The notes beneath the pieces were generated by a model. It was given only the letters and a program-made list of their open reading frames with translations. It was not told the DNA's origin and did no database searches. Shown piece after piece: positions 15,989 through 54,877 of a stretch of DNA of 64,000 bases. Positions within the stretch are counted from its first letter, which is position 1. Each line of letters begins with the position of its first letter. This DNA comes from Thermobifida halotolerans. Its GTDB lineage: Bacteria > Actinomycetota > Actinomycetes > Streptosporangiales > Streptosporangiaceae. The stretch is taken from the NCBI RefSeq assembly GCF_003574835.2, contig NZ_CP063196.1:1116001-1180000 (forward strand), written 5' to 3'. A program made the position numbers and the translations under genes.

Positions 15989-16187
15989 GCGGTCTTCTCC
16001 GTGCCCCACCGCGGGCGGGCGCGGATGTCCCTTATCCCCGGTTCTTCCGCACCCGTCCGGGTTCGCGGCGGCTGACCGTGCTGAGCGAGGGTGGATCGCA
16101 CGGTAAGGGGCCGTTGTGAGCGCGGGGTGAGGCGCCGATGCCTTCGGCCGGTCCCGTGCGTCCGTGTCAGAGACGAGGAGCCGGAAC

Positions 16188-17873
16188 ATGACCGAGAACA
16201 CCGTTGACGAACAGTTCGGCTTCGCCGACCTGGGACTCCGACCAGAACTGCTGGGAGCGCTGTCCGACCTCGGTTACGAGGAGCCCACGGCGATCCAGCG
16301 CGAGGCGATCCCACCCCTGATGGAGGGCCACGACCTGCTCGGCCAGGCCGCGACGGGAACCGGCAAGACCGCCGCGTTCGCCCTGCCCATCCTGCAGCGG
16401 CTGCCCGACGGCGCCCGGGGCGACGCCCCCTCGGCGCTGGTGCTGGTCCCCACCCGCGAACTGGCGCTGCAGGTGTCGGAGGCACTGCACCGCTACGGCC
16501 GCAACATCGGCGCACGGGTGCTGCCCATCTACGGCGGCCAGCCCATCGGACGGCAGCTTCGGGCGCTGGAGCGCGGCGTCGACGTCGTCGTCGCCACCCC
16601 CGGACGCGCGCTCGACCACATCGGCCGGGGCACGCTCGTCCTGGACGACGTGCGGATGGTCGTCCTGGACGAGGCCGACGAGATGCTCGACATGGGCTTC
16701 GCCGAGGACATCGAGGCGATCGTCGAGGAGGTCCCCGCCGAACGGCAGATGGTGCTGTTCTCGGCGACCATGCCCGAACGCATCGACGGCATCGCCCGCC
16801 GCCACCTCCACGACCCGGTCCGGGTGCGCATCGCCCGCGAGGCCCCCGCCCCCGGCGAGGAGCCGAAGGTCCGCCAGAACGCCTACGTCGTGGCGCGCCC
16901 GTACAAGCCCGCCGCGCTGGGACGGGTACTGGACGTGGAGTCGCCCACCGCCGCGCTGGTGTTCTGCCGCACCCGCGAGGAGGTCGACCAGCTCACCGAG
17001 ACCCTCAACGCCCGCGGCTACCGCGCCGAGGCGCTGCACGGCGGCATGAGCCAGGAGCAGCGCGACCGCGTCATGGGCCGGCTGCGCAGCGGCACCGCCG
17101 ACCTGCTCGTGGCCACCGACGTGGCCGCCCGCGGTCTCGACGTCGAGCACCTCACCCACGTGGTCAACTACAACGTGCCCTCGGCGACCGAGACCTACGT
17201 GCACCGCATCGGCCGGGTGGGCCGGGCCGGGCGCGAGGGCGTGGCGATCACCCTGGTGGAGCCGCGCGAGCACCGGATGCTCAAGACCATCCGGCGCGAG
17301 ACCAACGGCCAGATCACCGTCGAGAAGCTGCCGACCGTCGCCGACCTGCACGCCCGGCGCATGGAGCTGACCCGCGCCGCGCTGTACGAGAGCCTCGTGG
17401 AGGAGGACCTCGACCTCGAGCGCTTCCGCGTCGTGGTGGAGCCGCTGGCCGAGGAGTTCGACATCATGGAGATCGCGCTGGCCGCGGTGAAGCTGGCGCA
17501 CGAGGCCGGCGGTGCCGTCACCGAGGACGAGGAGATCCCCGAGCCCACCCTCCGTCCCGAACGCGACCGTCCGGGACGGGGAGGACGGCGCAGCGGACCG
17601 GGCCGCGGGGACCGGCGCGGTCGGGGACCGTCGGACGGCATGACCCGCCTGTTCGTCGGTATCGGCCGCAACGCCCGGGTGCGCCCCCAGGACCTGGTCG
17701 GCGCGATCGCGGGGGAGACCCAACTGAGCGGGCGCGACATCGGCGCCATCGAGATCGCCGACCGCTTCTCCCTGGTCGAGGTACCCGAGAACACCGCCGA
17801 CGGGGTGATCGCCGCGCTGAAGAACAGCACCATCAAGGGCCGCCGCACCGTGGTGCGCCGCGAGCGCTTCTGA
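16188..17873 (+). CDS. DEAD-box ATP-dependent RNA helicase (DeaD/CsdA-like)
   Basis: The protein is about 561 residues. Motifs run in the usual order: Q motif 'YEEPTAIQREAIPPL', ATGTGKT, PTRELALQ, VLDEADEMLDMGF, FSATMPE, then HRIGRVGRAGREG. The last 75 residues (TRLFVGIGRNARVRPQDLVGAI to the end) are a DbpA-type RNA-binding domain, preceded by an Arg/Gly-rich linker. This is the DeaD/CsdA architecture, a cold-shock and ribosome-assembly helicase. The ATG at 16188 follows GAGGAG with 7-base spacing. Confidence 0.93.
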   Translation: MTENTVDEQFGFADLGLRPELLGALSDLGYEEPTAIQREAIPPLMEGHDLLGQAATGTGKTAAFALPILQRLPDGARGDAPSALVLVPTRELALQVSEALHRYGRNIGARVLPIYGGQPIGRQLRALERGVDVVVATPGRALDHIGRGTLVLDDVRMVVLDEADEMLDMGFAEDIEAIVEEVPAERQMVLFSATMPERIDGIARRHLHDPVRVRIAREAPAPGEEPKVRQNAYVVARPYKPAALGRVLDVESPTAALVFCRTREEVDQLTETLNARGYRAEALHGGMSQEQRDRVMGRLRSGTADLLVATDVAARGLDVEHLTHVVNYNVPSATETYVHRIGRVGRAGREGVAITLVEPREHRMLKTIRRETNGQITVEKLPTVADLHARRMELTRAALYESLVEEDLDLERFRVVVEPLAEEFDIMEIALAAVKLAHEAGGAVTEDEEIPEPTLRPERDRPGRGGRRSGPGRGDRRGRGPSDGMTRLFVGIGRNARVRPQDLVGAIAGETQLSGRDIGAIEIADRFSLVEVPENTADGVIAALKNSTIKGRRTVVRRERF

Positions 17874-17879
17874 GCCGCG

Positions 17880-17904
17880 GCCCGCGCCCCGCCGGGGCGC
17901 GGGC
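17880..17904 (+). terminator. Terminator after the DEAD-box helicase
   Basis: Stem GCCCGCGCCCC pairs perfectly with GGGGCGCGGGC at 17894-17904 through a 3-base loop. It begins six bases after the stop codon. Confidence 0.75.
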
Positions 17905-18488
17905 CGGCGCGCCGCCTCGGGCGGAGCGCCTCCGGGAGCCGATCGGTGCTGCCGGACTCCGGGTGGGGAGCGACTCCCGGAGGCCGGTCGGGATGCGCGC
18001 CGCCGTCCCGTGCTCGCGGCCGAGCCGGTCCAGTGCCGGACCGGGGGTGGGAAAGCGGTCGCGCGGCCGGGGAGAAGAGCCGGGTGTCCTCACCCGCTCG
18101 CGGAGACCGGACCGCCCCCGTCCGGCGGATGGAGAGGCCTTCGGCGCGATCGGCCGGTCCGCCACTGAGCCTTCCGTGGCCCCGCCGTGCGGTGGGCACC
18201 GGAGGATCCCGCCCCGGGCGCGACGGAGTAGCATGCGGGAAACGCCAGGTGAGACGCTGCTGCCAGGCTCAGCGACGCCGTCGTCCCCCGCCCCGCCCGT
18301 GGCCGGGGCGGACGGGAGGTCGGCGATCCCGCCAGCCGCCCCACCCGGCTCCTGCCCACACCCCGCCCGACCGGGACGGCCCTGTGGACGGTTCACGATC
18401 TCGGCGGCAGGCTCCTCCCCTCCCGGTGACCGCGTGGCGGCGGGAGCGGAAGAAGGGGAGCGCCCGTCCCCAAGCGGTAGGGAGCGAC
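17905..18488. other. Intergenic region upstream of the ThDP enzyme
   Basis: This G+C-rich region of about 580 bases has no credible gene in either strand. It contains several imperfect hairpins around 18160-18300 and a GGGAG-type ribosome site immediately before 18489. Structured leader RNA is possible but matches no known riboswitch consensus I recall. Confidence 0.35.
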
Positions 18489-20051
18489 ATGAACGGTGCA
18501 CAGGCGCTGATCCAGACCCTCGTCGACAGCGGGGTGGAGGTGTGTTTCGCCAACCCCGGAACCTCGGAGATGCACTTCGTGGCCGCCCTGGACCACGTCC
18601 CGCGGATGCGCGGCACGCTGTGCCTGTTCGAGGGGGTCGCCACCGGGGCGGCCGACGGCTACGCGCGGATGACGGACCGGCCCGCGGCGGTGCTGCTGCA
18701 CATGGGCCCCGGCCTGGGCAACGGGCTGGCGAACCTGCACAACGCCAGACGCGCCGACTCCCCCGTCGTCGCCGTCGTCGGCGACCACGCCACCCACCAC
18801 AAGCGCCTGGACGCCCCCCTGGAGTCCGACATCGACGCGATGGCGGGGGCGGTGTCGGGCTGGGTACGCCGCTCGCTGCGCAGCGCGGACGTCGCGGCGG
18901 ACGCCGCCGAGGCGGTCGCCGCGGCGGCGGCCCCTCCCGGAAGGGTGGCCACGCTCATCCTCCCGGCCGACGTGTCCTGGAGCGAGGGCGGACGGCCCGC
19001 CCCACCGGTCGGCGTCCGCCGGCCCTCGCCGGCCCCCGCCGAGACGGTCGAGTCGGTCGCGAAGGCGCTGCGTTCGGGGGACCGGTGCGTCCTGTTGCTG
19101 GGCGGACGGGCCCTGCGCCGGCCGGCTCTCGACGCGGCCGACCGTATCGCGCGCGCAACCGGGGCGCGGCTGTACGCCGAGACGTTCCCCGCCCGCCAGG
19201 AGCGCGGGGCGGGGGTCGCGGCGGTGCCGCGCCTGGCCTACCGGGGGGAGCAGGCCCGTGCCCAGTTGGCCGGGGCCGAGCACCTGGTCCTGGTGGGCGC
19301 GCGCTCCCCGGTGGCGTTCTTCGCCTACCCCGGCGAATCCGGCGACCTGCGGCCCGAGGGCTGCACGGTGCACGTCCTGGCCGCGGACGGCGACGACGCC
19401 GACGGCGCGCTCGCGGACCTGGCCGACCTCGTCGGCGCGCGCACCGGTTCCGCCGCGCGGCCCGTACGGCGGCCCGACAGGCCCGGCGGCGCGCTCACGG
19501 TCGCCTCGCTCGCGGCCGCGGTGGGCGCGCTGCTGCCCGAGGACGCGGTCGTCGTGGACGAGTCGGTCACCGCGAGCGCCGCGATGCTCGCGGCGACCGG
19601 GGGCGCCCCGCCGCACGACTGGCTCGCCCTGACCGGCGGAGCGATCGGCCAGGGGATGCCGCTGGCCGTCGGCGCGGCGGTCGCCGCGCCGGGGCGCAGG
19701 GTGGTCAACCTGGAGGCCGACGGCAGCGCCATGTACACCCTCTCGGCGCTGTGGACCCAGGCCAGGGAGGGCCTGGACGTGACCACCGTGGTGGTCAACA
19801 ACGGCTCCTACGGCATCCTCACCGAGGAGTTGCGGAAGGTGGGGGCGGCCGCCTCCGGCACGGCGGCGCGGAGCCTGCTCGACCTGGGCGACCCGGCGCT
19901 CGACTTCGTCGCGTTGGCGAGGGGCATGGGAGTCCCCGCCGTACGGGCGCGCACCGCGGAGGAGTTCGCCGCCCACTTCGCGGCGGCCGTCGCGGAGCCG
20001 GGCCCCCGGCTGGTCGAGGCCGTCGTGGCGCCGACCCCCCAGGTGTTCTGA
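18489..20051 (+). CDS. Thiamine diphosphate-dependent enzyme (acetolactate synthase/benzoylformate decarboxylase-like)
   Basis: This 520-residue enzyme has all three ThDP-family domains. The N-terminal pyrimidine domain has FANPGTSEMHF and LFEGVATGAADGYAR with the conserved catalytic Glu. A middle domain follows. The C-terminal ThDP domain has GGAIGQGMPLAVGAAV and EADGSAMYTLSALWTQ...VVNNGSYG, the metal-binding GDG...N(N) motif with Ala-Asp-Gly-Ser. Actinobacterial homologues are usually annotated as acetolactate synthase large subunit, but there is no small subunit here. The exact substrate is open. It is followed by a strong hairpin. Confidence 0.87.
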   Translation: MNGAQALIQTLVDSGVEVCFANPGTSEMHFVAALDHVPRMRGTLCLFEGVATGAADGYARMTDRPAAVLLHMGPGLGNGLANLHNARRADSPVVAVVGDHATHHKRLDAPLESDIDAMAGAVSGWVRRSLRSADVAADAAEAVAAAAAPPGRVATLILPADVSWSEGGRPAPPVGVRRPSPAPAETVESVAKALRSGDRCVLLLGGRALRRPALDAADRIARATGARLYAETFPARQERGAGVAAVPRLAYRGEQARAQLAGAEHLVLVGARSPVAFFAYPGESGDLRPEGCTVHVLAADGDDADGALADLADLVGARTGSAARPVRRPDRPGGALTVASLAAAVGALLPEDAVVVDESVTASAAMLAATGGAPPHDWLALTGGAIGQGMPLAVGAAVAAPGRRVVNLEADGSAMYTLSALWTQAREGLDVTTVVVNNGSYGILTEELRKVGAAASGTAARSLLDLGDPALDFVALARGMGVPAVRARTAEEFAAHFAAAVAEPGPRLVEAVVAPTPQVF

Positions 20052-20088
20052 TCATGGAGGCTGGTGACACCCGCCCCGGCTGACACAC

Positions 20089-20153
20089 GCAGAGGGGGCC
20101 TTCGGGATCGGTGTGGATTGCGGCGTCCACCCGAACCGGAAGGCCCCCTCTGC
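20089..20153. terminator. Long inverted repeat downstream of the ThDP enzyme
   Basis: A perfect 15-bp inverted repeat runs from 20089-20103 to 20139-20153, built on AGAGGGGGCCTTC. The intervening 35 bases also pair partly, so the hairpin is about 60 bases long. It may be a terminator. It also abuts the IS481-like remnant, so an element end is possible. Confidence 0.5.
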
Positions 20154-20293
20154 CCCACACCGCCCACGCCAACGCCCGCCTGACCCCCGCCGGACGCCTC
20201 GCGCTGGCCCGCTGCATCGTCGGGGACGGCCCCGTCCGCTCACCGACGCCGGACCGGTGGGGCAGTGGTCCAGGTACCGCCGCGCTGCGATGA
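20138..20293 (+). pseudogene. IS481-family transposase N-terminal remnant
   Basis: The reading frame gives PHTAHANARLTPAGRLALA and then RCIV. This matches the opening helix of IS481-type transposases (family pattern HxNAxLTxxGRLxLxxxIV). The similarity ends after about 25 residues. No DDE catalytic core follows, and the DNA to 20770 has no coherent transposase reading frame. I regard it as a decayed insertion sequence left between the ThDP gene and the catabolic locus. The remaining sequence up to 20770 is unassigned. Confidence 0.5.
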
Positions 20294-20776
20294 CGGGCGC
20301 CGGTGGCCGCGTCCGGCCCCGCACCGGAGGGGTCACCCCTTCCCACGCCTGCCCTGCCGCTCCGGGGCTACCGGCAACCGCGTGCCCCGGCGCCCGTGAC
20401 GCTGCGGCCGACCGCGCGGTCGGGGCCTGCGCTGGTCCGCCCCGTGCGCAAGGACGGGCCCGCCCCGGCGGCGGAGGTCTCCTCCTGGCTACGCCGGCGC
20501 AGCCGCGCGCCCGACGCCACGATCCGGCGCGACTGGCTGATCGACGCGCCCGTCGAACGCTCACTCACCGCCTGCGGCCACTGACCGGCACACACCCCGT
20601 TCTCGCCAACGGTCGAGAGCCGGTACGGACGGGGAGAGGCGGCGGGGCCGAGTCCGCCGCCTCTCTGTCTTCCCCCGTGGAGCGCCTGTTCAGGGCCACT
20701 GTGCCCGAATTCGTGACTGAGGGGTGTCCGAAACGAGATGCTCCCGAAACATGAATCTAACAGCAAAAAGTTCTTA

Positions 20777-20838
20777 TTGACTGAAGAGATGTTCAGTGTT
20801 AGTTTACCCGTTCAGTAAAGACAATACTGGATACAGTA
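20777..20838 (+). promoter_or_regulatory. Promoter and operator-like repeats of the XRE-cupin catabolic locus
   Basis: TTGACT (20777-20782) and TAGTTT (20800-20805) are spaced by 17 bases and form a good sigma-70-type promoter. Overlapping it is ACTGAA-N6-TTCAGT (20780-20797), then another TTCAGT (20811-20816) and TACTG-N4-CAGTA (20825-20838). The sites share an ACTGA/TACTG half. The neighbouring XRE regulator would be the natural ligand (autoregulation). The region is markedly more A/T-rich than its surroundings. Confidence 0.65.
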
Positions 20839-20852
20839 AGGATGAAGCCGAG

Positions 20853-21431
20853 GTGTCGAATGATGGCCTGGAATCCCTGGGGCCGCGGATCCGTACTCTG
20901 CGGCAGCAGCGTCGACTGACCCTCAGGGAGATGTCGCGGCAGACCGGGCTTTCGCAGAGCTTCCTCAGTCAGTTCGAGCGCGGCGCCACACAGGCGAGCA
21001 TCTCCTCGCTGCGGCGCATCAGTTCCGCGCTGGGCATCCCACTGGGGGACCTCTTCGACACCGGGAAGGGCAGCGGGAACGGCGTGCTGCGCGCCGAGGA
21101 CCGCCCGCGCATCCCCTTCGGTGAGAACGCGGTCAAACTGCTGCTCACCCCGAGGCCGCTGGAGCACATCGAGGTCTTCCACGTGGTGATGGACGTCGAC
21201 GGATCCACGGGAAGCCAGCAGTACACGCACGGCGACTCCGACGAGATCATCGTTGTCCTCACCGGAAGGCTTCGCGTGGAACTCGCCTCAGAGGTTTTTG
21301 TCCTGGGCAAGGACGACTCGATCAGTTTCCGAAGCGGCATCCCGCACAAGGTCGTCAACGTGGGCTCCGAATCAGCCGAAGCCCTGTGGATCATCGGGCC
21401 GCCAGGACACAAGAAGGAAGAAGAGGAATAG
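20853..21431 (+). CDS. XRE-family HTH regulator with C-terminal cupin domain
   Basis: The protein is 192 residues. The N-terminal helix-turn-helix is LRQQRRLTLREMSRQTGLSQSFLSQFERG (shown in part), typical of PuuR/SutR-like regulators. The C-terminal cupin has GDSDEIIVVLTGRLRV and 'FRSGIPHKVVN', with His residues that could bind metal or ligand. The order HTH-cupin usually senses a metabolite that the adjacent operon consumes. I chose the GTG at 20853 because AAGGA lies 11 bases upstream and the HTH starts soon after. It precedes the transporter gene by 3 bases, so it is first in the operon and probably autoregulated. Confidence 0.92.
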   Translation: MSNDGLESLGPRIRTLRQQRRLTLREMSRQTGLSQSFLSQFERGATQASISSLRRISSALGIPLGDLFDTGKGSGNGVLRAEDRPRIPFGENAVKLLLTPRPLEHIEVFHVVMDVDGSTGSQQYTHGDSDEIIVVLTGRLRVELASEVFVLGKDDSISFRSGIPHKVVNVGSESAEALWIIGPPGHKKEEEE

Positions 21432-21434
21432 TTC

Positions 21435-22523
21435 ATGGACTTCCGAAAGAAGAGAGGGGCCGCGGCCAAGAGCGCGGCGGTCACCCTGTCGGTGGTCGTG
21501 CTGGCCACGGCCTGCGGCGGCTCCGACTCCGCCTCCGGTGAGCAGGAGACCCTCGTCGTGGCCAGCTGGGGAGCCTACTTCACCGAGGCCACCCGCACCC
21601 ACCTCGCCGACCCGTTCACCGAGGAGACCGGGATCGAGGTGGAGATCGTCGACGCTCCCGGCAAGTACGCGGCCAACCTGGAGGCCCAGCAGCAGGCGGA
21701 CAACGTCCAGTGGGACCTGCTGGACTCCACCTCGGCTCCCGACGCCTACCAGATGGCGCACGACGGGCTCATCCAGCCGCTGCCCGAGGACCTGCGGACC
21801 GAACTGGAGGGCGTCCTCGGCGAGGAGGCGGTCGAGGAGTTCGGGTTCACCTTCTCCAACCTCGGCTACGTCATCGCGTGCAACACCGAGGAGGTCGCCG
21901 ACTGCCCCGACAGCCAGGAGGCGTTCTTCGACACCGACGCCCACCCGCAGCGGCGGCAGATGATCTCCACGCTCCCGCTGCTCAACCTCAGCCTCGCGGA
22001 GATGGCCGCCGGAGTCCCGGCCGAGGACATCCCCACCCACGAGATCGACATGGACCGGGCCTTCGCCACGCTGGAGGAGATCAAGCCCGAGGTCAAGGTC
22101 TGGTGGGAGTCGGGCGACCAGATGGAGCAGGCGTTCCGCAACGGCGAGGTGGACATGGGCATCGCCTACAGCGGACGCGCCTTCGGGCTCGCCGAGAACG
22201 GGCAGCCCATCGAGGTGCAGTGGAGCGGCGGCGTCTACAACCCCGGCTTCTGGAACGTCGCGACCGACGCCCCCCACAGCGAGGCGGCCTTCCAGTTCCT
22301 GGAGTGGGTCGCCAAGAACCCCGAGGCGCAGGCCAAGTGGGCCGAGCACACCAAGTACTCGGTGCCCCACCCCGAGGCCTTCGACTACATGGACGACGAG
22401 TTCAAGACCCAGCTCGCCGACTGGCCGGACAACCGCGCGCAGCTCACCACGCTGAACTACCAGTGGTACGCCGAGAACTCCGAAGAGGTCAACCGCCGCT
22501 GGCAGGAATTCCTCCGCGGTTAG
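21435..22523 (+). CDS. Polyamine-type ABC transporter solute-binding lipoprotein (PotD/PotF-like)
   Basis: The protein is 362 residues. A basic then hydrophobic signal ends in ATACGG, a lipobox with Cys at residue 27. The mature protein has VVASWGAYFTEATRTHLADPFTEETGIEVEIVD and FNLGYVIACNT-type elements (NLGYV), characteristic of the PotD/PotF family. The terminal Trp/Tyr-rich motif (YQWYAENSEEVNRRW) fits a pocket for a cationic or aromatic nitrogenous ligand. It is followed by both permeases and the ATPase, so a full importer is present. The ligand need not be a polyamine. Confidence 0.9.
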   Translation: MDFRKKRGAAAKSAAVTLSVVVLATACGGSDSASGEQETLVVASWGAYFTEATRTHLADPFTEETGIEVEIVDAPGKYAANLEAQQQADNVQWDLLDSTSAPDAYQMAHDGLIQPLPEDLRTELEGVLGEEAVEEFGFTFSNLGYVIACNTEEVADCPDSQEAFFDTDAHPQRRQMISTLPLLNLSLAEMAAGVPAEDIPTHEIDMDRAFATLEEIKPEVKVWWESGDQMEQAFRNGEVDMGIAYSGRAFGLAENGQPIEVQWSGGVYNPGFWNVATDAPHSEAAFQFLEWVAKNPEAQAKWAEHTKYSVPHPEAFDYMDDEFKTQLADWPDNRAQLTTLNYQWYAENSEEVNRRWQEFLRG

Positions 22524-22547
22524 CGGTGACCTGACGGAAGGGCCACG

Positions 22548-23456
22548 ATGATGAGTCTCACAACCGAGCGCCCGGTCCCCACCGGGCGTGGCACGACCGA
22601 AAAGACGAAGCCCTGGAGCAGCACGCTTCCCCTGCGTACGGCCCTCTTCATGGTGGCTCCCCTGGGCGTCGCGATCGCGCTCTTCGTCATCTACCCCCTG
22701 ATCACGCTGGTCTGGGACTCGGTGACGATGGGGGACGGACCGGGCAACTACGGCGCCGCGCTCTCCTCGGGAGCCGTCCGCCGCGCGATCGGGGTCACCC
22801 TGCTGGACTCCGCGGTCGTCATGGTCCTCGCGGTGGTCGGCGGCACGGCCATGGCCTGGACGCTGCGCACCACGCGACGGGGATGGGTCAAGGCACTGGT
22901 CTGGGCGGCGGTGCTGCTGCCGTTCTGGATGGGCGTGGTGGTCAAGAACTACGCCTTCGCCCTCCTGCTGGCGCGCGAGGGACCGATCAACTCCCTCCTG
23001 CTGCGGGTCGGCGCGGTCCAGGAGCCGCTGGAACTGATGTACACACCCACCGCCGTCGTGCTCGGCATGACCTACACGATGCTCCCCTACGCCTTCCTGG
23101 CGGTGTATCCGAGCGTGTCCATGGTGAACCTGGACCTGCTCAACGCGGCCAGGGGCATGGGGGCCTCGGAGCGGCGCGCCTTCGGCGGGATCGTGCTCCC
23201 GCTGATCCGGCCCGGTCTCATCGCCGGCTGCGCCATCGTCTTCGCGATGTCCATCGGGTTCTACGTGACCCCGGTGCTGCTGGGCGGTGCGCAGACGCCG
23301 TTCATCGCCACGGTGATCAGCGACGACATCTTCCGCTTCTTCGACTATCCCCGAGCCGCCGCCACCTCGGTGATCCTGCTCGTCATCGCGTTGACGACGC
23401 TGGCGGTCACCATCAGGGCGGTGGGTCTGAAAGCGATCCGGGGAGGACTGGGATGA
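22548..23456 (+). CDS. ABC importer permease (PotB-like)
   Basis: The protein is about 302 residues with six membrane helices. The cytoplasmic coupling-loop motif is AARGMGASERRAFGGIVLPL, where E-A-A-R-G-like residues contact the ATPase. The stop overlaps the next gene's start (ATGA). A second ATG follows the first directly, so the start may be one codon later. Confidence 0.9.
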   Translation: MMSLTTERPVPTGRGTTEKTKPWSSTLPLRTALFMVAPLGVAIALFVIYPLITLVWDSVTMGDGPGNYGAALSSGAVRRAIGVTLLDSAVVMVLAVVGGTAMAWTLRTTRRGWVKALVWAAVLLPFWMGVVVKNYAFALLLAREGPINSLLLRVGAVQEPLELMYTPTAVVLGMTYTMLPYAFLAVYPSVSMVNLDLLNAARGMGASERRAFGGIVLPLIRPGLIAGCAIVFAMSIGFYVTPVLLGGAQTPFIATVISDDIFRFFDYPRAAATSVILLVIALTTLAVTIRAVGLKAIRGGLG

Positions 23457-24262
23457 CGACGACCACGAGCGTCGACAGGCTGCTCGACGGGCTGGCCAGG
23501 TTCGCCGGTCGGGCGGTGGTGGCGGTCTTCCTGGGATTCATGGTCCTGCCGGCGGCCTTCATCGGAGTGCTCTCCTTCTCCGAGGATCCCTACATCATGT
23601 TCCCGCCGCAGAGCTGGGGGACCGACCGCTACGTCGAGGTGATGACTTCGGACACCTGGATTCGTCCGATCACCCTGTCGTTGGAGATCGCGGCGGCGAC
23701 GGCGGTGGTGGCCCTCGCCGTCGTGGTCCCGGCGATGTTCGCCCTGAAACGGGGCAGGGTTCCGGGCACCATGGCGGTGGAGTCGGCGGGGGTCGCCCCC
23801 ATGCTGTTCCCCATCGCCGCCTACGCGGTCGGCATGTACGCGGTGTTCGCCGAGTTCGGCCTCCTGGGCACCTTCTGGGGCATCGTCGTGGCCCACGCCG
23901 TCCACGCGATCCCGCTGGTGATCATCCTGCTGAGCACCGCCATGGACCAGATCCGCCCCGAACTGGAGCTCGCCGCGATGACGATGGGCGCCAGCCGGGT
24001 CCGCGCCTGGACCGGGATCACCGCCCGGCTGCTGCTCCCCGCGATCCTGGCCGCCGCCATCTTCGCCTTCATCCTCAGCTTCGACGAGGCGGTGTTCATC
24101 ACCTTCCTCGGAGGTCCCGGGCTGGTCACCCTGCCGAAGTACATCTTCGACTCGGTCCAGTTCGGTGTGGACCCCGCCATCACCGCGGTGGCCACCCTGC
24201 TGATGGTGGTGACCGCAGGACTCATGCTCGGCGCGACTGTTCTCCGAGGGAGATCACGATGA
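23453..24262 (+). CDS. ABC importer permease (PotC-like)
   Basis: The protein is about 269 residues with six helices, and the coupling loop is LAAMTMGASRVRAWTGITARLLLP. This is the second membrane subunit of the importer. ATGA overlaps lie at both ends: its ATG overlaps the PotB-like stop and its stop overlaps the ATPase start. Confidence 0.9.
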   Translation: MTTTTSVDRLLDGLARFAGRAVVAVFLGFMVLPAAFIGVLSFSEDPYIMFPPQSWGTDRYVEVMTSDTWIRPITLSLEIAAATAVVALAVVVPAMFALKRGRVPGTMAVESAGVAPMLFPIAAYAVGMYAVFAEFGLLGTFWGIVVAHAVHAIPLVIILLSTAMDQIRPELELAAMTMGASRVRAWTGITARLLLPAILAAAIFAFILSFDEAVFITFLGGPGLVTLPKYIFDSVQFGVDPAITAVATLLMVVTAGLMLGATVLRGRSR

Positions 24263-25371
24263 CCTACACGCTCAACGCCCCGCAGAGGACAGAGATGGAC
24301 CACACCACCGCGGATCCCGACATCGCGCTGCGTATCCGCTCCCTGTGCAAGTCGTTCGGCGACCACGAGGTGCTGCGCAGCGTGGACCTGGACCTCGGCG
24401 CCGGAGAGTTCCTCACCCTGCTGGGGCCCAGCGGCTCCGGCAAGACCACCCTCCTGCGCATCCTCGCCGGCTTCGACACTCCCGACAGCGGGCGGATCCT
24501 GCTGCGCGGTCGGGACATCTCCCACCTCAGCCCCGCCGAGCGCGACCTGGGCATGGTGTTCCAGCAGTACGCCCTCTTCCCGCACCTGACCGTCGCCGAC
24601 AACGTCGCCTACGGTCTGAGGATGCGCGGCTGGAAACCGGCCCGCCGCACCCGGCGGGTCGCCGAGATGCTGGAGCTGGTGGGGCTGCCGGACAAGGCCA
24701 GGAGCAAGCCCCAGCAGCTCTCCGGCGGCCAGCAGCAGCGTGTCGCGCTCGCCCGGGCCCTGGCCTACGAGCCGCAACTGCTGCTGATGGACGAGCCGCT
24801 CGGCGCCCTCGACCGCAGCCTGCGCCTGCAGATGCAGGAGGAGATCCGGCGGGTCCACCGCGAGGTGGGAACCACGATCATCTTCGTCACCCACGACCAG
24901 GAGGAGGCGCTCGCGCTGTCGGACCGGGTCGCGATCATGCACGAGGGCGGACTGGCGGGCCTGGCGCCGCCCAGCCAGCTCTACCAGAACCCTCCCTCGA
25001 CATTTGTCGCCCGCTTCTTCTCCAACGCCAACCTCGTCCCCGCGACCGCGGCCGACGGCGGGCAGTCGGACACGGCCGAGATCACCGCGGCCGGGACCTC
25101 CTTCACACTGCCCACCGCGCGACGGGGAGAGGTCACCCTCGCGGTGCGCCCGCGCAGCCTGCGGCTCAGCGTCGACGACGACGCCCTGCACCTGACCGGT
25201 GAGGTCATCGAGTCGCTGCTGCTGGGTGAGGAGCGCCAGGTCCGCGTGCAGGTCGACGGGGTCGGTCCCGTCACCGCGTTCGTGGACTGGCGCGGCACCG
25301 ACGACCTGGTCGCCGGGCGGACCTGTCGACTGTCGGCCCCCGCGTCCGAGATCACCGTGCTCACCGAGTAG
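24259..25371 (+). CDS. ABC importer ATPase (PotA-like)
   Basis: The protein is 370 residues. Walker A is GPSGSGKTT, the Q-loop is FQQYALFPHLTV, the signature is LSGGQQQRVALARAL, and Walker B is LLLMDEPLGALDR. The H-loop is FVTHDQEEAL. A C-terminal TOBE-like domain follows (residues about 270-370). All catalytic elements are present, so the transporter should be functional. A second in-frame ATG at 24295 (MDHTTAD) lacks a better ribosome site. Confidence 0.93.
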   Translation: MTYTLNAPQRTEMDHTTADPDIALRIRSLCKSFGDHEVLRSVDLDLGAGEFLTLLGPSGSGKTTLLRILAGFDTPDSGRILLRGRDISHLSPAERDLGMVFQQYALFPHLTVADNVAYGLRMRGWKPARRTRRVAEMLELVGLPDKARSKPQQLSGGQQQRVALARALAYEPQLLLMDEPLGALDRSLRLQMQEEIRRVHREVGTTIIFVTHDQEEALALSDRVAIMHEGGLAGLAPPSQLYQNPPSTFVARFFSNANLVPATAADGGQSDTAEITAAGTSFTLPTARRGEVTLAVRPRSLRLSVDDDALHLTGEVIESLLLGEERQVRVQVDGVGPVTAFVDWRGTDDLVAGRTCRLSAPASEITVLTE

Positions 25372-25528
25372 GAGGCGCGCGAACCGGTGGACCGCCGGCC
25401 ATATGACCACTCCCTCCGCGCGACCACCGTCCGGACGGCGGAAACCGCCGGTCACGCGAGGAGCGGCCACCGGATCGCCGCACCGAGCACCTTCCAACCC
25501 GTCTTTCCTGATTGGAGACCTGATCATC

Positions 25529-26665
25529 ATGCCTACCGTCGCTGTCGCCGGTGCTGGCATCGCGGGCTTCGCGGCTGCTGCGGCGCTCGCCCGCAGGGGA
25601 TTCGACGTCCGCATCTACGAACGCTCCCAGGAGCCGCGCGAGTTCGGCGCGGGCATCTACCTCAAGGAGAACAGCCTTCCCGTCTTCGACGCCCTCGGTG
25701 TCGGCGAGCGCATCGCCGAGCGGGGGGTGCGCATCCGAGCCGCGCGCATCGTCGACGAGACCGAGACGATCATCGTCAACCGCGACCTCGGCCAGGAGCG
25801 GCTCCTCGTCGCCCTGCGCGCCGACGTGCACAACCTGCTGCGCGAGGCCGCGGTCGAGGCGGGCGCCGAACTCGTCACCGGTCGCACCGTGACCGGCGCC
25901 GACCCCGAGGGCGTGCTCCGCCTCGCCGACGGTGAGGAGGTCCGGGCCGACCTGGTCATCGGCGCCGACGGCGTGCACTCACCGGTGCGCGACTCCCTGG
26001 GACTGCTCAGGGTCCGCGGCATGTTCGGGGACGGTGCGACCCGTGTCGTCATTCCCCGCACCGAGGCGGACGGGCCCTACAGCACCGAGTACTGGTCGGG
26101 GCAGCACCGGGTGGGCGTCGCCCCGTGTGCCGAGGACCAGACCTACGTCTTCATCATCGGCCCCGAGAGCGAGGAGCGCGTCGGTCGGCTGCCGCTGGAC
26201 CGGGAGTACTGGACCGAACAGTTCCCCCACCTCAAGCACGTCTTCGACCGGGTCGGCGACGACGTGGGTGTGCACCACACCCACCCCTACGTCGAGTGCA
26301 CCTCGTGGACGGCCGGACGCGTGGCCGTCATCGGCGACGCCGCGCACGCCCAGCCGCCGAACTTCGGCCAGGGCGCCGGGGTGGCCATCGCCGCGGCGTG
26401 GCGGATGGCCGACATCCTGGCGGACGCCTCCGACATCACCGAGGGCCTCACCGAGTGGGAGCGCCAGGTGCGTCCGGGCATCGACATGGTGCAGCGGCTC
26501 ACCAGCATCTACGACGTCGCCGGGTACGCCTGGCCCGCCGAGCTGGCCCCGGTCCGCGCCTCGATCTTCCACGACATGTCACTGCACCCCGCGATCTCCC
26601 CGCACTGGGAGTACTGGTGGCGCGGCGGCGTCGAGGTGCCGCAGCAGGAGGAGTCGGCCCGGTGA
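25529..26665 (+). CDS. FAD-dependent aromatic/N-heterocycle monooxygenase (MHPCO-like)
   Basis: The protein is 378 residues. An N-terminal Rossmann motif (GAGIAGFAAAAALARRG) for FAD is followed by IYERSQEPREFGAGIYL, a middle DG motif (DLVIGADGVHSPVRDSLG) and a late GDAAHAQPPNFGQGAG. This is the class A flavin monooxygenase layout. The FGAGIYL, VRDSLG, VIPR and SWTAGRVAVIGDAAHA segments resemble 2-methyl-3-hydroxypyridine-5-carboxylate oxygenase, an enzyme that opens pyridine rings. That resemblance is from memory of the family and is not a search result. The GTG of the amidohydrolase overlaps its stop. The ATG follows GGAGA; the 157-base gap from the ATPase gene contains no gene. Confidence 0.85.
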   Translation: MPTVAVAGAGIAGFAAAAALARRGFDVRIYERSQEPREFGAGIYLKENSLPVFDALGVGERIAERGVRIRAARIVDETETIIVNRDLGQERLLVALRADVHNLLREAAVEAGAELVTGRTVTGADPEGVLRLADGEEVRADLVIGADGVHSPVRDSLGLLRVRGMFGDGATRVVIPRTEADGPYSTEYWSGQHRVGVAPCAEDQTYVFIIGPESEERVGRLPLDREYWTEQFPHLKHVFDRVGDDVGVHHTHPYVECTSWTAGRVAVIGDAAHAQPPNFGQGAGVAIAAAWRMADILADASDITEGLTEWERQVRPGIDMVQRLTSIYDVAGYAWPAELAPVRASIFHDMSLHPAISPHWEYWWRGGVEVPQQEESAR

Positions 26666-28266
26666 CGGCCCAGGTCACGGAGCGGGGCGCGGAGCTGCAG
26701 TTCGTCAACGGCACCGTCCTCACCATGGACGCGGACCGGCGCGTCGCCTCGGCCCTGGCCGTGGACGGCGGCCGGATCGTGCTGGTCGGCTCCGACGAGG
26801 AGGTGCTGGCGACCCGCCGCCCGGCCTCGCGCGTGGTCGACCTGGGCGGCCGGACCGTCGTCCCGGGGCTGATCGACGCCCACACCCACGTCGAGCTGAC
26901 CACCTACTCGCGGCATTTCTGGACCGACGTGCGCGGCCGGTCCCGGGCCGAGGTCCTGCGCACCGTCACGGACCTGGCCGCGGGACGGCCCGCCGGCGAG
27001 TGGGTGGTGCTGCAGGGCACGTTCGGCCAGGACCTGCCCGACCGCGCGGAACTGGACCGGGCCGCCCCCGACCACCCGGTGGCGGTGCGCTGGTCCATGC
27101 ACAAGTTCCAGTTGAACTCGGCGGCGCTGGCGGTCAGCGGCATCGACCGGCGCACCGTCGCCGAGCCGGGCATGCGGCTGAACCGGGACTCCGGCGGGGA
27201 GCTGACCGGCCTGGTGGAGGAGGGATGGGACCTGCTGGCCTGGGAGCCGCCGCTGCGCGACGCCCTGCGTCCGGCGATCGCCGAGACCCTCACCGAACTG
27301 TTCCTGCGCAACGGGGTGACCAGCATCAACGAGGTCGCCGCCAGCGCGGCGGGGGTGCGGGTCTACCAGGAGCTGGGGCGGACCGGGAACTACCCGCGCA
27401 TGGGGCTGGCACTCACCGCGGCCCCCGGCCACCAGGCGCTGGTCGACACCCGGAACTTCTCCGGACTGGGGTTCGCCACCGGGTTCGGCGACTCCCGCTG
27501 CCACCTCCAGGCGGTCAAGATCTTCCTGGACGGAGGCAGGGACGGCGCCTTCCGGTCCAACGGCATCGGCGGCCCCGCCGACTCGTGGGGCCTGCTCAGC
27601 CGGACCCTGCCCGGTCTGACCGCGGAGCTCGCCGCGGCGATGGACGCCGGACTCCAGGTGTGGGTGCACGCGATCGGCGACCTCGCCCAGGAGTGCGCGG
27701 TCAGCGCGATCGAGCAGGCCGCGCGCAGCCGTTCGACCACGGGCCACCGCTTCCGCGTCGAGCACTTCGGCAACGAGATGTACGAGGCCGACCGGCTGCG
27801 CCGACTGGTGGACGCCGGGGGCATCCCGGTGCCCAACCCCAGTTTCGTGTTCGCCGAACCCGACGATCCGGGCAGGCGGCTGCCCCCGCACACCGTCAAG
27901 TACGGGCTGCGGACGCTGCGTTCGCTCACCGGCGTCGTCGTGGGCAACTCCGACACCGCCGGGGCGCAGCCGTTCGCCTGCAACCCGTGGTTCGTGATGC
28001 AGTGCATGATCCTGCGGCGCAACCGCAACGGCGTGGTCGTCGACCCCGAGGAGGCGGTCGGCATCGACGAGGCGCTCGCCGCGTTCACCCGTGACGCCGC
28101 CTACGCGACGTTCCAGGAGGAGCAGAAGGGCACACTGGAGGCGGGCAAGCTCGCCGACTTCGCGGTGCTGGAGACCGATCCCCGGTCGATGCCCGCGCAG
28201 GAGCTGGACTCGATGGTCACCGCGGCCACCGTCATCGGAGGCCGCGTCGTCCACGGCGGGCTCTGA
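26662..28266 (+). CDS. Metal-dependent amidohydrolase (YtcJ/amidohydrolase_3 type)
   Basis: The protein is 534 residues. It has the amidohydrolase N-terminal beta sandwich with VDLGGRTVVPGLIDAHTHVE, the first metal-binding HxH. A later WVHAIGDLAQE carries another His and is followed by FRVEHFGNEMY. The end has GKLADFAVLE, typical of amidohydrolase superfamily members. The YtcJ/NfdA group includes N-substituted formamide deformylases. The GTG overlaps the monooxygenase stop (GTGA), so it should act on the product or the precursor of that enzyme. I infer an amide or cyclic amide hydrolysis step after ring oxidation. Confidence 0.87.
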   Translation: MTAQVTERGAELQFVNGTVLTMDADRRVASALAVDGGRIVLVGSDEEVLATRRPASRVVDLGGRTVVPGLIDAHTHVELTTYSRHFWTDVRGRSRAEVLRTVTDLAAGRPAGEWVVLQGTFGQDLPDRAELDRAAPDHPVAVRWSMHKFQLNSAALAVSGIDRRTVAEPGMRLNRDSGGELTGLVEEGWDLLAWEPPLRDALRPAIAETLTELFLRNGVTSINEVAASAAGVRVYQELGRTGNYPRMGLALTAAPGHQALVDTRNFSGLGFATGFGDSRCHLQAVKIFLDGGRDGAFRSNGIGGPADSWGLLSRTLPGLTAELAAAMDAGLQVWVHAIGDLAQECAVSAIEQAARSRSTTGHRFRVEHFGNEMYEADRLRRLVDAGGIPVPNPSFVFAEPDDPGRRLPPHTVKYGLRTLRSLTGVVVGNSDTAGAQPFACNPWFVMQCMILRRNRNGVVVDPEEAVGIDEALAAFTRDAAYATFQEEQKGTLEAGKLADFAVLETDPRSMPAQELDSMVTAATVIGGRVVHGGL

Positions 28267-28280
28267 ACCACCGGACCGGG

Positions 28281-28319
28281 ACGGCCGTCGGCGGGGCAGC
28301 GGAGCCCGCCGACGGCCGT
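28281..28319 (+). terminator. Strong terminator ending the catabolic operon
   Basis: Stem ACGGCCGTCGGCGGG pairs perfectly (15 bp) with 28305-28319 through a 9-base loop, 14 bases after the amidohydrolase stop. Confidence 0.8.
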
Positions 28320-29380
28320 TCCCGTGTCCACGTGGTCCCCGGTGGCCGCGGCCCCGCCGGGCGCCCATGTCCTCCGGCGGGAACGGCCGCACCTCCTGCC
28401 TGCTCGGCAAGGCCGCCGCCTCCACCGCCGGCGGAGGCGGCGGACGGAGCGGAGGACCGACGGCGGGACCCGTTCCCACGTGCCTTCCGCGGCCCCGCGA
28501 ACACCTCCGGTGTCGACGGCCGCACAAGAAGGACAGGTAGGCGCCCGGAAGCCCCCCGGGTACGGGCCGCCCGGCGACGCTCCCGGAAAAAGGGGCGGGG
28601 AACCGGGACGAGTCGGCCGACCGGAACTGCGGGGACGCCCGCGAGACGGGCGGCGAAAAAGCGTTCGCACGTCGGAGAGGCTGCGGCGGCTCCGGCCGAC
28701 CGCGCCGCAGAGGACGGCGTATTCCGGACGCGGGCCGGCACCGGAGCCACCATTCGGAATACTCACCGAACCGGTCGAAACGCGTCCGTCGGCGGCGTGG
28801 GCCCGGTGGAGTCAACAGCACTTTCCGGGGCCTTCGCGGCCAGCGGCCCGGCGAGCGGCGGGAGGGGCCACCCAAGCGGGGCGGATGTCGCGCCCACCGT
28901 CCCGCTCCCCGGGAAAGGGCGGCGGAGGGGCCGCGTCCAGCCGCGGACACGGGCTGCCGCCGGGATGTCCCCCCGGCGGCAGCCCTCGCCGTTTGGGCAC
29001 CTGAGGGCAGGTCAGCGGCATGGCGGCACCGGATGGCGGGGGACCGGTCCCCGGCCGGGCGCGGTGCGGCGCCCACGCGGCCGCGCCGGAATCCCCGAGG
29101 ACCCCGCGGCGCGATGCCGGGACCGGTGAGGCGGGGAAGTGGACTGCGGCACCGCCGGGCGACAGCGGTGCCCTCCGTGTTTCCCGACGGCCGGACCGCG
29201 GAAAACCCCGTCCGAAAGCCCAGGTGATCGCCGCCGTGATTTCCCATACGATGATCCTGTCGGAAACGGCGCGAATTATCGTCCATCCTGGTGATCCTGA
29301 CGGTACGGGCGTTGAAAATGTGGGGGAACGCCCAATAACGTCAATGTTGACAGAATTCTGCAGAGGAGCAGAGCACAGCG
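28320..29380. other. Long intergenic region without a supported gene
   Basis: This region of about 1.06 kb has many overlapping reading frames but no recognisable protein. The composition of all frames looks Arg/Pro/Gly-random. It contains a strong hairpin at 28951-28985 and becomes A/T-richer after 29220. There TTGAAA at about 29312 and TTGACA at 29346-29351 are possible -35 elements for the PQQ gene. AGAGGAGCAGAG precedes its ATG. Confidence 0.4.
28951..28985. terminator. Isolated 14-bp hairpin
   Basis: GGGCTGCCGCCGGG (28951-28964) pairs perfectly with 28972-28985 over a 7-base loop. It lies in gene-free DNA, so it may end an unrecognised transcript. Confidence 0.5.
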
Positions 29381-31225
29381 ATGTCTCCCCCTCCCTCGAC
29401 CCCCTCCCGTCCGCGGAAATCCGCGCGGCGTTTTCTCACCTGGTTCGGGGTGGGGATACTGGCGACGGGACTGCTGGCCACCCTGGTCGCGCCGCTGTTC
29501 GGGCACGACGGCAGCGGCCACGATCCGCGCCCGGTCATCCGCGTCTTCTTCTGGGCGCTGGCCGGTCTGTGCGGCTGGCTGATGCTGCTGCAACTCCTGG
29601 AACGGGTCCCGGAGGAGGAACAGCAGCAGGCGGCACGGCCGCCGGTGGCCCTGGGCGCGGTGCTCGCGGTGGCCGCCGCGGGGATGGCCTGGCTGGAGAC
29701 ACCGGTCTGGCTGCTCGGGCTCGCGGAACCGGAGCGCGGAAGCACACCCTGGCCGGTGCTGGGCTGGGTCGGGCAGGTGGCCGTGGCCGTCGGCGCGACC
29801 GTCGTGGCGGCGGTCGGACACAGCCACCGGCCCCGGTGGACCGGGCCGCTTCCGGGACTGGCGAGCGGGGCGGCGGTGACGCTGCTGCTCGCCGCCGCGG
29901 GATGGATGGGCGCCACCGAGGTCCTGGTGCGGCACACCACCGTCGACGCCGCCGCGGCCGAACCGGTGCCGTCCGTGGTGCGTGAGGTGGCCTGGACGTG
30001 GCATCCCCCGGAGGGAAGGGAGGCCCGCCGGGTACTGGCCACGAGCGCGGGCGCGGTCGTCGACGTCGGCGACGGGGTCGTCGCGCTGGACACCGCGACC
30101 GGCGAGGAGACCTGGTACTACCGCAGGCCCGGCAGGAGGGTGGAGGTCAACGTCACCCCCGACGGGCGGACCGTCGTCCTCGCCTTCACGGTGCACCACC
30201 GGGACGTCCGGGGCGGACTGCTCACGCTCGACGCCGCCACCGGACAGGTGCGCGGCGACGCCCTGGCCCCCTCGGACCTGCCCTTCCGGAGGTCGGGAAT
30301 CCCCTCGGAGAAGGGACTCCCGGACATCGACCTGCTCACCTCCGACGCGCGGATCCTGCTGGAGGAGGGCCGCGGACAGCTCGTGGCGCGGAGTCTGGAG
30401 ACCGACGAGGTTCTCTGGACGGCCGCGCTGGACCCCGGCTGCCTGGTCGACATCCAGCCCCACGGCTGGATCCGGACCTTCTCCGACATGGTCGTCGTCT
30501 CCCAGAACTGCCACGAGGACCTGGCGGAGTTCGGCGCCGGTGCCCGGTGGAAGCAGGCGGCCCTCGACCTCAGAGGAGGAACGAACCGCCTGACGGCGTT
30601 CGACGCGGCCACCGGCGCACCGGAGTGGCTCGTGGAGCGCCCCAAGCAGGGACCGCTCGGAGCCAACCCCGAGATCACGTACCACCGGGACGGCAGTCGC
30701 TCCTACCTCCACCCGGTCACGTCGGACGGTTCGGTGGTCGCCGTGGAGAAGTGGGGGTCCGGCAGCCGGTACCTGGTGGTGGACCGGATGACCGGCGAGG
30801 TGCTGGCCGACGACCTCGACCTCACCGAGAACGGCAAGAGCATCCATTTCACGGCGGACTCGGTCTCGGTCGTGCGCATCGACGAGGAACTCGGAGGGAC
30901 CCTGGTCCACGAACGGCGCACGCTGGACGGGGAGCTTGCGGCGAGCGCCGCGAGCAACGCGCTGTTCCCGCACGTCTTCGCCGGAATCGAATGGGTGGAC
31001 CTGGCCGATGCCGCCGTCGTGGTCCACCTGGGCGAGGACACGGGCACCACAGACGCCTACGACATCGGTGTGGCGCCGTGGGACGGCAGCGCCGAGCCCT
31101 TCAGCGTTCCGTTCGACGCCGGGAGGCCGGACGCCGAGATCTCCCGGGTGCGCCTGGTGCCCGCCCCCGGTGCGCTCGTCGTCTTCCTCGACGATCCCGA
31201 CCGGCCGATCTCCGGCCTGCGGTGA
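29381..31225 (+). CDS. Membrane-anchored PQQ-like beta-propeller protein (paralogue 1)
   Basis: The protein is 614 residues. Residues 15-175 contain four or five hydrophobic helices. A long outer domain follows, with repeating 'LDTATGEETWYY', 'LDAATGQV' and 'FDAATGAPEWLV' motifs, which are the strand-turn features of PQQ-type propeller blades. The domain is probably extracytoplasmic. A paralogue at 55058-56848 has the same helix and blade layout and identical phrases such as LLQLLERVP and EVAWTW. No cofactor-binding catalytic residues are visible, so it may be a scaffold or sensor. The ATG follows GCAGAGGAGCAG. Confidence 0.82.
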   Translation: MSPPPSTPSRPRKSARRFLTWFGVGILATGLLATLVAPLFGHDGSGHDPRPVIRVFFWALAGLCGWLMLLQLLERVPEEEQQQAARPPVALGAVLAVAAAGMAWLETPVWLLGLAEPERGSTPWPVLGWVGQVAVAVGATVVAAVGHSHRPRWTGPLPGLASGAAVTLLLAAAGWMGATEVLVRHTTVDAAAAEPVPSVVREVAWTWHPPEGREARRVLATSAGAVVDVGDGVVALDTATGEETWYYRRPGRRVEVNVTPDGRTVVLAFTVHHRDVRGGLLTLDAATGQVRGDALAPSDLPFRRSGIPSEKGLPDIDLLTSDARILLEEGRGQLVARSLETDEVLWTAALDPGCLVDIQPHGWIRTFSDMVVVSQNCHEDLAEFGAGARWKQAALDLRGGTNRLTAFDAATGAPEWLVERPKQGPLGANPEITYHRDGSRSYLHPVTSDGSVVAVEKWGSGSRYLVVDRMTGEVLADDLDLTENGKSIHFTADSVSVVRIDEELGGTLVHERRTLDGELAASAASNALFPHVFAGIEWVDLADAAVVVHLGEDTGTTDAYDIGVAPWDGSAEPFSVPFDAGRPDAEISRVRLVPAPGALVVFLDDPDRPISGLR

Positions 31226-51959: not shown

Positions 51960-52569
51960 GCGGCCATCCTGCCGCCCAACGCCGCGGCCACGCGACCCCG
52001 CCCCCGCGGGCCGCATGGCAGCACCGACCGGAGTGTGCGGGGCGGGGCCGCCTCCGAAGAGCCAGGGGAGGGGTGTTTCCGCCGGGCGCCCGGTGCCCAC
52101 CCCCCGGGGGGCGGGCCGGAACACTCCCGGGCCGGGGTGCGGCGGCTCAGCGGTTTGGACCCGGACGTGGCCCGGGGAACCTCCCGCGCGGCGCCCGGTG
52201 CCGCCCGCTCGCGGCGACCGCCCGACAGGGTTCGCGACCGTGCCGCCGGGGGCACACCTCCGAAAGCAGCGGTCCGTGAGTCCGCCACAGACACCGACTG
52301 CTTTTCCCGTGCTGGAGGTGAACTGCCTGCCAGCCCCACCGGGCACCCACGCTCTGTTCACTCATTCCAATTCTTTCCTCCTGAGGTTGGAGTGTCCGCT
52401 TCTGAGACGAGTGAGGAAAGGTGGGACCGCTGTTCTCGACCGGATACATCGAGTGCCCCTGAGAGCAGCCAATACTGCCTGGTCATTCTGGTTGAGCGCG
52501 CTGATTGTCACCCCCTTCGTCTAGGGTGCCCTCCCGGAACCCGGTGGATGGGCGAAATCTGGGGGAGAA
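51960..52569. other. Gap between the NB-ARC remnant and the HNH island
   Basis: No gene seen. G+C falls after about 52300 (beginning of the low-G+C island), with a Trp/Thr-poor, mixed-codon sequence. GGGGGAGAA immediately precedes the GTG at 52570. Confidence 0.4.
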
Positions 52570-53022: not shown

Positions 53023-53063
53023 AGGGCATCAGTGAGGAAACAGCAGAGACTGTCAAATCGCTC

Positions 53064-53675: not shown

Positions 53676-54040
53676 CTCCTTGGTTGTCGCTCGGAGGCCG
53701 TTGGGCGCGGTGGTCAGGAATCTTCCATGATTTTCGGAGTCGAGCTGTGCTTCGTGGGCGTGGTCCTGGGGGAGGAATGATTTTCTTTTGTCCGGAATCT
53801 CGGGATTTACGATGCTCGCCGTTTTTTGGTTCGCGGGCTTGTGTTGGATTGTCATGAGCGACACTGGTCCTCGGTGGTTGTGTAAACCCTTGAAGGATTG
53901 GAGTGGATAGGATTTTCGTTTTCCTCGTGCGATCCAGGTTGCAGTTGAGGACTTGGGCCTTAGTTCTGTTGAGTTTCTGTCATCCTCTCGGGAGGGCGAA
54001 CGAGGAGTGCCTGGGCTCAGGACTCGGGTAGTATACGGCC
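53676..54040. other. Low-G+C intergenic region before the second HNH gene
   Basis: About 365 bases, clearly A/T-richer than the bulk of the window. No coding frame was supported. TAGTAT at 54029-54034 ends seven bases before the GTG at 54041, which would give a leaderless transcript. Confidence 0.5.
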
Positions 54041-54754: not shown

Positions 54755-54877
54755 CCCCCGCAACTGATCTGGTGCGCCCCCGGGACCGCGGCCCTGGACC
54801 TTTTCTTCCACAGGTTATGGAGGCGTGGGTCCTGGCATCGCGGCCGTGAGGTGCTGTTGCCATATGTGGCCAGTCGT

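Follow-up and report, generated by a model that had tools for sequence, protein, structure and literature searches.

Organization of the locus

We analyzed a 64,000-nt stretch of the Thermobifida halotolerans genome (bases 1116001–1180000 of contig 1, genome size 5.5 Mb), referred to below as the window, whose positions serve as coordinates throughout. At 20853–28266 it contains a unit of seven open reading frames (ORFs), read from the sequence and all in one orientation, which encode a regulator, an ATP-binding cassette (ABC) importer and two enzymes, a flavin monooxygenase (FMO) and a metal-dependent hydrolase (AHY). The unit is probably an undescribed catabolic system. Its genes and the signals at its two ends are the following.

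20777–20805, + strand: weak promoter-like sequence TTGACT-N17-TAGTTT, a candidate read from the sequence (8/12 consensus matches) that overlaps the putative operator
20780–20797: predicted operator ACTGAA-N6-TTCAGT (window copy ACTGAAGAGATGTTCAGT), 55 nt upstream of the regulator start codon
20853–21431, + strand: XRE-family regulator with a C-terminal cupin domain (Pfam HTH_3, 6e-12; Cupin_2, 2e-15)
21435–22523, + strand: lipoprotein-type solute-binding protein of the γ-aminobutyric acid (GABA)/opine/PotD group (Pfam SBP_bac_8, 2e-34)
22548–23456, + strand: ABC permease of PotB/PotH type (BPD_transp_1; best NCBIfam score PotB, 134 bits, cut-off 348)
23453–24262, + strand: ABC permease of PotC/PotI type (BPD_transp_1; best NCBIfam score PotC, 97 bits, cut-off 326)
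24259–25371, + strand: ABC ATPase of PotA/PhnT2 type (ABC_tran, 1e-37; TOBE_2)
25529–26665, + strand: FMO, a group A flavin monooxygenase (Pfam FAD_binding_3, 1e-33), paralogue of 2-methyl-3-hydroxypyridine-5-carboxylate oxygenase (MHPCO)
26662–28266, + strand: AHY, a YtcJ-type metal-dependent hydrolase (Amidohydro_3, 1e-59)
28281–28319, + strand: 15-bp GC hairpin after the AHY gene, a possible terminator by its fold, without a T-run (terminator scan negative)

The ORF coordinates bear out seven co-oriented genes in one locus, as a previous sequence-only reading of this DNA had described. The overlaps that it named are present as well (ATGA at the permease-permease and permease-ATPase junctions, GTGA between FMO and AHY), but they do not make an unbroken chain from importer to enzymes, with gaps of 24 nt before the PotB-type gene and 157 nt between the PotA-type gene and the FMO gene. 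The hairpin, previously called a strong terminator, is indeed very stable (fold of 28267–28335, -56.3 kcal/mol, z -6.9); yet a terminator scan, which requires a T-run, found no site on the strand of the unit.

Conservation of the unit and of the FMO-AHY pair

A tblastn search located the full seven-gene order at three more loci in two genomes, with 55–71% identity: L029 and L040 of Planosporangium flavigriseum, and L073. All seven genes of L029 are 58–68% identical to those of the window. As the order is identical at L029, L040 and L073, the layout goes beyond chance. The earlier proposal that uptake and catabolism form one coherent unit, served by an XRE-cupin regulator of its own, is supported. 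P. flavigriseum has a third close FMO-AHY pair, L042, in this case with a PucR-type regulator and a binding protein of amino-acid type.

The genome sets that we searched were samples: 200 genomes of the family, 394 of the class and 396 of the phylum, and 250 and 348 of the family and order of Planosporangium, respectively. FMO was matched at 1e-40 in 12 of the 200 family genomes (own genome included), the best foreign match being 41% identical. In the class set, no genome but the own one passed 1e-75 for FMO or 1e-130 for AHY, and the same was true of the phylum set at 1e-90 with a four-row FMO profile; in the family of Planosporangium, P. flavigriseum alone passed 1e-110 for AHY. A pattern scan of a public genome collection returned one close relative, L029, but does not establish that the unit is rare there, because it relied on exact eight-residue patterns and overlooked two copies of 58–65% identity in P. 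flavigriseum itself. In the order of Planosporangium a profile search at 1e-90 matched FMO 13 times, in 7 genomes including P. flavigriseum. The sequence-only reading had staked itself on the two enzymes being neighbours elsewhere too, and AHY lies close to FMO in 13/13 of these matches (nine newly fetched loci and four earlier ones).

In a tree of 34 FMO rows, two groups were recovered, clade I with 6 rows (100/100) and clade II with 12 (98/100). Omitted from the tree were L045 (a near copy of L034), the near copies L022, L023 and L025, as well as L030, L031 (three rows), L032 and L003. AHY was found within ~4 kb of FMO for 18/18 rows of clades I and II vs. 1/15 of the other rows with a known neighbourhood; the MHPCO row, which has none, stands outside the 15, and the own-genome paralogues L002 and L004 were scored from the only hydrolase that genome has. 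The sole other row with AHY is L020, counted as having the hydrolase despite two missing metal ligands, Lys and one His. Looser arrangements were seen in L030, whose 30% identical monooxygenase has a hydrolase match ~5 kb off, and in L050, which has a hydrolase and no monooxygenase match.

The stop/start overlap of the FMO and AHY genes is kept at 6/6 clade I loci. Across the 18 pairs, the distance matrices of the two proteins are strongly correlated (Mantel r 0.953, 0/5000 permutations as high), and this holds within clade I (r 0.949; 1/720, the identity permutation being among the 720) and within clade II (r 0.943; 0/5000). Judged from these distances, the correlation shows joint inheritance, not interaction. 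Clade II extends to Sinorhizobium fredii NGR234 and to Rhodococcus and Arthrobacter plasmids, with sugar-type importers at most loci and none matched in L075. On such comparative grounds the FMO-AHY pair is the core of the system, around which importers appear to have been swapped.

P. flavigriseum carries six FMO-AHY pairs (L029, L040, L042, two in L043, and L081), with Pot-, amino-acid- and sugar-type importers. On the Rhodococcus plasmids, the clade II clusters L034 and L045 are both near IS110 transposase genes, and L045 is also near an IS256 transposase gene.

Relationships of the two enzymes

Among solved structures the best match of FMO is MHPCO (PDB 3alj and others; 2e-55), an enzyme of vitamin B6 degradation, which also gave the best fold (TM-score 0.85, 30% identity; mean pLDDT, the per-residue model confidence, 91.8). 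Together with the PF01494 domain this assigns FMO to the group A flavin monooxygenase fold. The earlier description of the enzyme as MHPCO-like is correct at this level of common superfamily and fold but not below it. In the tree, MHPCO clusters with L021, L024, L026 and L028 in a separate well-supported clade (100/100) from which FMO is excluded, and the partner of FMO is an Amidohydro_3 enzyme. By alignment, FMO keeps Tyr54, Arg181, Arg211 and Tyr223 of MHPCO and has Ala, His and Pro at Tyr82, Tyr270 and Cys294, three residues that the four clade members all retain. The Tyr82 column is alignment-dependent, yet no Tyr occurs anywhere in that segment of FMO. Besides Tyr223 and Tyr82, the other residues compared presumably matter as well; Tyr270 and Cys294 mutants of MHPCO appear among the titles of solved structures. 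Tyr223 and Tyr82 are themselves reported to be important in substrate deprotonation (PMC6180312). On tree position and residues, FMO is a paralogue of MHPCO that lies outside the MHPCO clade.

A 38% relative of FMO is encoded directly before meqE, the gene of 3-hydroxy-2-methylquinolin-4-one 2,4-dioxygenase, on plasmid pAL1 of Arthrobacter sp. Rue61a (L047). By context, the wider FMO family seems to include quinolone-acting enzymes.

AHY displays the metal-ligand pattern of Amidohydro_3 in the alignment (HxH, Lys, His, His, Asp). We take these roles from the general motifs of the amidohydrolase superfamily. The putative set comprises H74, H76, K286, H336, H368 and D431 and is present in 10/11 aligned rows, L020 being without K286 and H368. 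The best fold matches of AHY, from a model of moderate quality (pLDDT 73.4), are 3icj and 3igh, both uncharacterised; no characterised close relative was returned by the solved-structure and fold searches.

Ligand class of the importer

The sequence-only reading had classed the importer as polyamine-type. As a statement on the ligand this is not supported: all four proteins score below the Pot equivalog cut-offs of NCBIfam, the two permeases (scores listed above) as well as the binding protein (PotD, 40.9 vs. 582 bits) and the ATPase (PotA, 331 vs. 482 bits). For the ATPase, the PhnT2 and potA subfamily models gave 353 bits (cut-off 458) and 330 bits (cut-off 356). The closest solved relatives of the binding protein are 4i1d, whose ligand is not named (9e-34), and Atu4243 (4eq7/4euo; 2e-32). 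It also matches the GABA sensors 9d57 and 6dgv, a mannopine binder (4e-30) and an agropine binder (7e-26), with polyamine binders as weaker matches (6e-18 and worse). Arg248 of the window protein aligns with an Arg of Atu4243, the Arg of the NGR/SGR motif being conserved, and where Atu4243 has Asp226 there is a Gly, within an NPG motif that L029, L040 and L073 share. In Atu4243, we take Arg203 to be the carboxylate contact and Asp226 the amine contact. Since GABA and opine binders surpass polyamine binders, the Arg is kept and the amine-contact Asp is replaced by Gly, a carboxylate-bearing ligand of the GABA/opine class is favoured over a polyamine. Atu4243 is reported to be an Agrobacterium GABA binder, and PA0222, a predicted polyamine protein of the same solute-binding group, was found to be GABA-specific (PMC6829864). 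With this precedent and no Pot cut-off reached, we rejected polyamine import as a statement on the ligand. A plasmid search with the binding protein gave no match at 1e-50.

Regulator and its predicted operator

The 5.5-Mb own genome has a single exact copy of the palindrome ACTGAA-N6-TTCAGT, which precedes the regulator; the P. flavigriseum genome has two, both of them before the L029 regulator, and the reversed control has no site in either genome (whole genomes were scanned for exact sites only). Across 1.01 Mb of fetched loci, in which overlapping loci are counted repeatedly (L051–L053 and L067 repeat the same places), L073 and L074 each have a copy with one mismatch at the regulator gene, and no other further site with ≤1 mismatch was present. 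At this stringency the palindrome accompanies the regulator orthologue in three further genomes and is conserved in four in total; it was not found at L040, L042 or the clade II loci. In the window itself, allowing ≤2 mismatches gave the 20780–20797 site only, with 0.22 expected and 19 of 100 shuffles having at least one such looser site. The L073 copy overlaps the longest possible regulator reading frame, whose true start probably lies further in.

The regulator orthologues of L029, L040, L073 and L074 are 48–57% identical to the window protein, and H126, E131 and H165 are invariant in 6/6 aligned rows. The same XRE and cupin architecture is found in PuuR, a regulator of putrescine use. The window protein scores 49.1 bits against the NCBIfam PuuR model (residues 1–172), far under the equivalog cut-off of 211 bits. 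From its placement and conservation, the palindrome is likely to be the repressor operator of the XRE-cupin protein. A sigma-70 promoter scan found one site before the L029 regulator and none at 20560–28700 of the window, where the TTGACT-N17-TAGTTT candidate fell below the threshold. The G+C content of 20741–20852 is only 39%.

Genes added at related loci

Related loci carry further enzymes. The L040 cluster adds a class III aminotransferase and an alanine dehydrogenase, and its regulator gene comes after these two; in L073 an alanine dehydrogenase gene begins 22 nt after AHY; L042 adds a class III aminotransferase and an aldehyde dehydrogenase; and the Rhodococcus clusters L034 and L045 have a gene annotated as succinate-semialdehyde dehydrogenase. 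Among the best 25 NCBIfam models per protein, no substrate-naming cut-off was reached by these aminotransferases and aldehyde dehydrogenases. By gene content, the additions hint at a semialdehyde and at amine nitrogen being released.

Proposed function and alternative explanations

We favour, with fair but not high confidence, the reading of the locus as a repressor-controlled operon, probably acquired as a block, whose products would import a carboxylated compound, probably an N-heteroaromatic one, oxygenate it and hydrolyse an amide. In the first step, which has strong sequence support, the XRE-cupin protein would hold ACTGAA-N6-TTCAGT ahead of the first gene and would release it once the substrate or an early intermediate occupies its cupin domain. 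Going by their families, the lipoprotein and the ABC transporter of PotBCA type would bring the substrate in. FMO, dependent on NAD(P)H and O2, would then hydroxylate the ring and might open it as MHPCO does, and AHY would hydrolyse the amide or lactam so formed. Finally, as relatives suggest, nitrogen and carbon may exit by way of a transamination, with pyruvate as the probable acceptor, together with alanine dehydrogenase, or else by way of a semialdehyde dehydrogenase.

Several observations weigh against this proposal. We know of no substrate or activity for any clade I or II relative. L074 keeps the regulator, FMO and AHY with no match to Pot-type or sugar-type importer genes, so that the Pot-type importer is not obligatory. 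Distant FMO relatives act by context on quinolone or carbocyclic rings (L047, L046), and the ring need therefore not be a pyridine. No palindrome with fewer than three mismatches is present at L040. No aminotransferase, aldehyde dehydrogenase or alanine dehydrogenase of the kind seen in relatives is among the genes scanned near the window unit, the own genome has no match to the L040 aminotransferase above 38% identity, and pyruvate as the aminotransferase co-substrate is something we infer.

The order of the two reactions could also be reversed, although this seems rather unlikely to us. AHY would first cleave an amide or opine-like conjugate brought in by the importer, giving an amino acid (alanine, for instance, which would pass to alanine dehydrogenase) and a ring compound that FMO would hydroxylate. 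The opine/GABA group of the importer, the alanine dehydrogenase genes in the L040 and L073 clusters and the position of an amidohydrolase-superfamily hydrolase beside a hydroxylating flavoenzyme all suit such a scheme. Alanine dehydrogenase is, however, accounted for equally by the class III aminotransferases of L040 and L042, via transamination to pyruvate, and MHPCO, the nearest characterised relative of FMO, opens its ring.

Less probable still is a route of the histamine/imidazoleacetate type, in which an amine would be converted via an aldehyde to imidazoleacetate, and an FAD monooxygenase (EC 1.14.13.5) would yield an imidazolone to be opened by a hydrolase. The enzyme classes of the hin pathway of Pseudomonas putida U, as described in PMC6467879, fit this: the pyruvate aminotransferase HinC, the aldehyde dehydrogenase HinD, the FAD-monooxygenase HinF and hydrolases. 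An aminotransferase occurs with aldehyde dehydrogenase in L042 and with alanine dehydrogenase in L040. However, the hydrolases of the hin pathway are termed amidases in that paper, which also names a permease (HinA), an enamine deaminase (HinL) and an aspartase (HinI). Neither a RidA-type enamine deaminase nor an aspartase was among the genes scanned in the window, which were part of the ORFs around the unit, or among 20 proteins from L020, L040, L042 and L043, again part of each neighbourhood; for the present unit, aminotransferases were found in relatives only.

That the unit detoxifies or tailors a metabolite, whether self-made or foreign, in place of using it as a nutrient appears improbable. 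Group A flavin monooxygenases also inactivate antibiotics, and tetracycline- and rifampin-type enzymes are among the FMO matches. Against this, the ABC importer of the operon takes the compound in, and relatives add enzymes of central metabolism. The least probable alternative, vitamin B6 degradation with FMO as MHPCO and AHY in place of acetamidomethylene-succinate hydrolase, draws on the match to MHPCO as closest solved structure and was rejected on the tree position of FMO and its lack of Tyr82, Tyr270 and Cys294.

Beyond the uptake-and-oxygenation operon favoured here for the window, the relatives suggest, tentatively, a new family of ring-breaking modules: an MHPCO-type FMO and an Amidohydro_3 enzyme co-inherited across Actinomycetota and Pseudomonadota, with importers exchanged and copies that may serve different substrates, to which the clade of the window would add the XRE-cupin/ACTGAA-N6-TTCAGT switch.

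Comparison with a known pathway and significance

A comparable clustering of a PF01494 flavin monooxygenase with an amidohydrolase-superfamily protein for an N-heterocycle is described for the kpi 4-hydroxypyridine pathway of Arthrobacter sp. IN13 (PMC7356986). There, KpiC differs in being an Amidohydro_1 protein, reported as a ring-opening dioxygenase, a permease (KpiP) stands in place of an ABC importer, one regulator is of the FadR family, and the alpha/beta hydrolase KpiB follows. In the open-licence literature that we searched, no description of the present catabolic route or gene combination was found. If the proposal is right, the locus supplies the regulator, operator, importer and two enzymes of one catabolic route, with handles on the substrate in a near-unique operator that could drive a reporter and a binding protein that could be screened. 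Plasmid proteins that are named only oxidoreductase and amidohydrolase would likewise gain a meaning from the recurrent pair.

Origin of the locus and neighbouring genes

Comparison by blastn with three congeners (L058, L059 and L060) delimited the following segment.

17893–29419: extra DNA relative to the three congeners, containing the seven-gene unit and a thiamine diphosphate (ThDP)-enzyme gene

The flanking genes (16159–17892 and 29420–31186) are 0.5–1.05 kb apart in 3/3 congeners vs. 11.5 kb here, and no FMO match at 1e-40 was found in those congeners. The G+C content differs only slightly between the unit (70%) and its flanks (73%). The simplest reading of this comparison is that the unit was probably acquired as a block by horizontal transfer; the rival explanation is its loss in all three congeners.

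The ThDP-enzyme gene (18489–20051; acetolactate-synthase-like, NCBIfam PRK07586, 768 bits) lies upstream of the unit within the extra DNA. It has no counterpart at L029, L040 or L042, and its sole match outside the own genome, among the loci collected before L073–L081, is a 27% stretch in L030; we rejected it as a member of the unit. The flanking gene at 29420–31186 encodes a PQQ_2-repeat protein, as in L058, and one congener (G086) has two more similar stretches, 65–68% identical, within 20 kb. Further along the window, at 52001–56000, the G+C content dips to 63% amid surroundings of ~73–74%.

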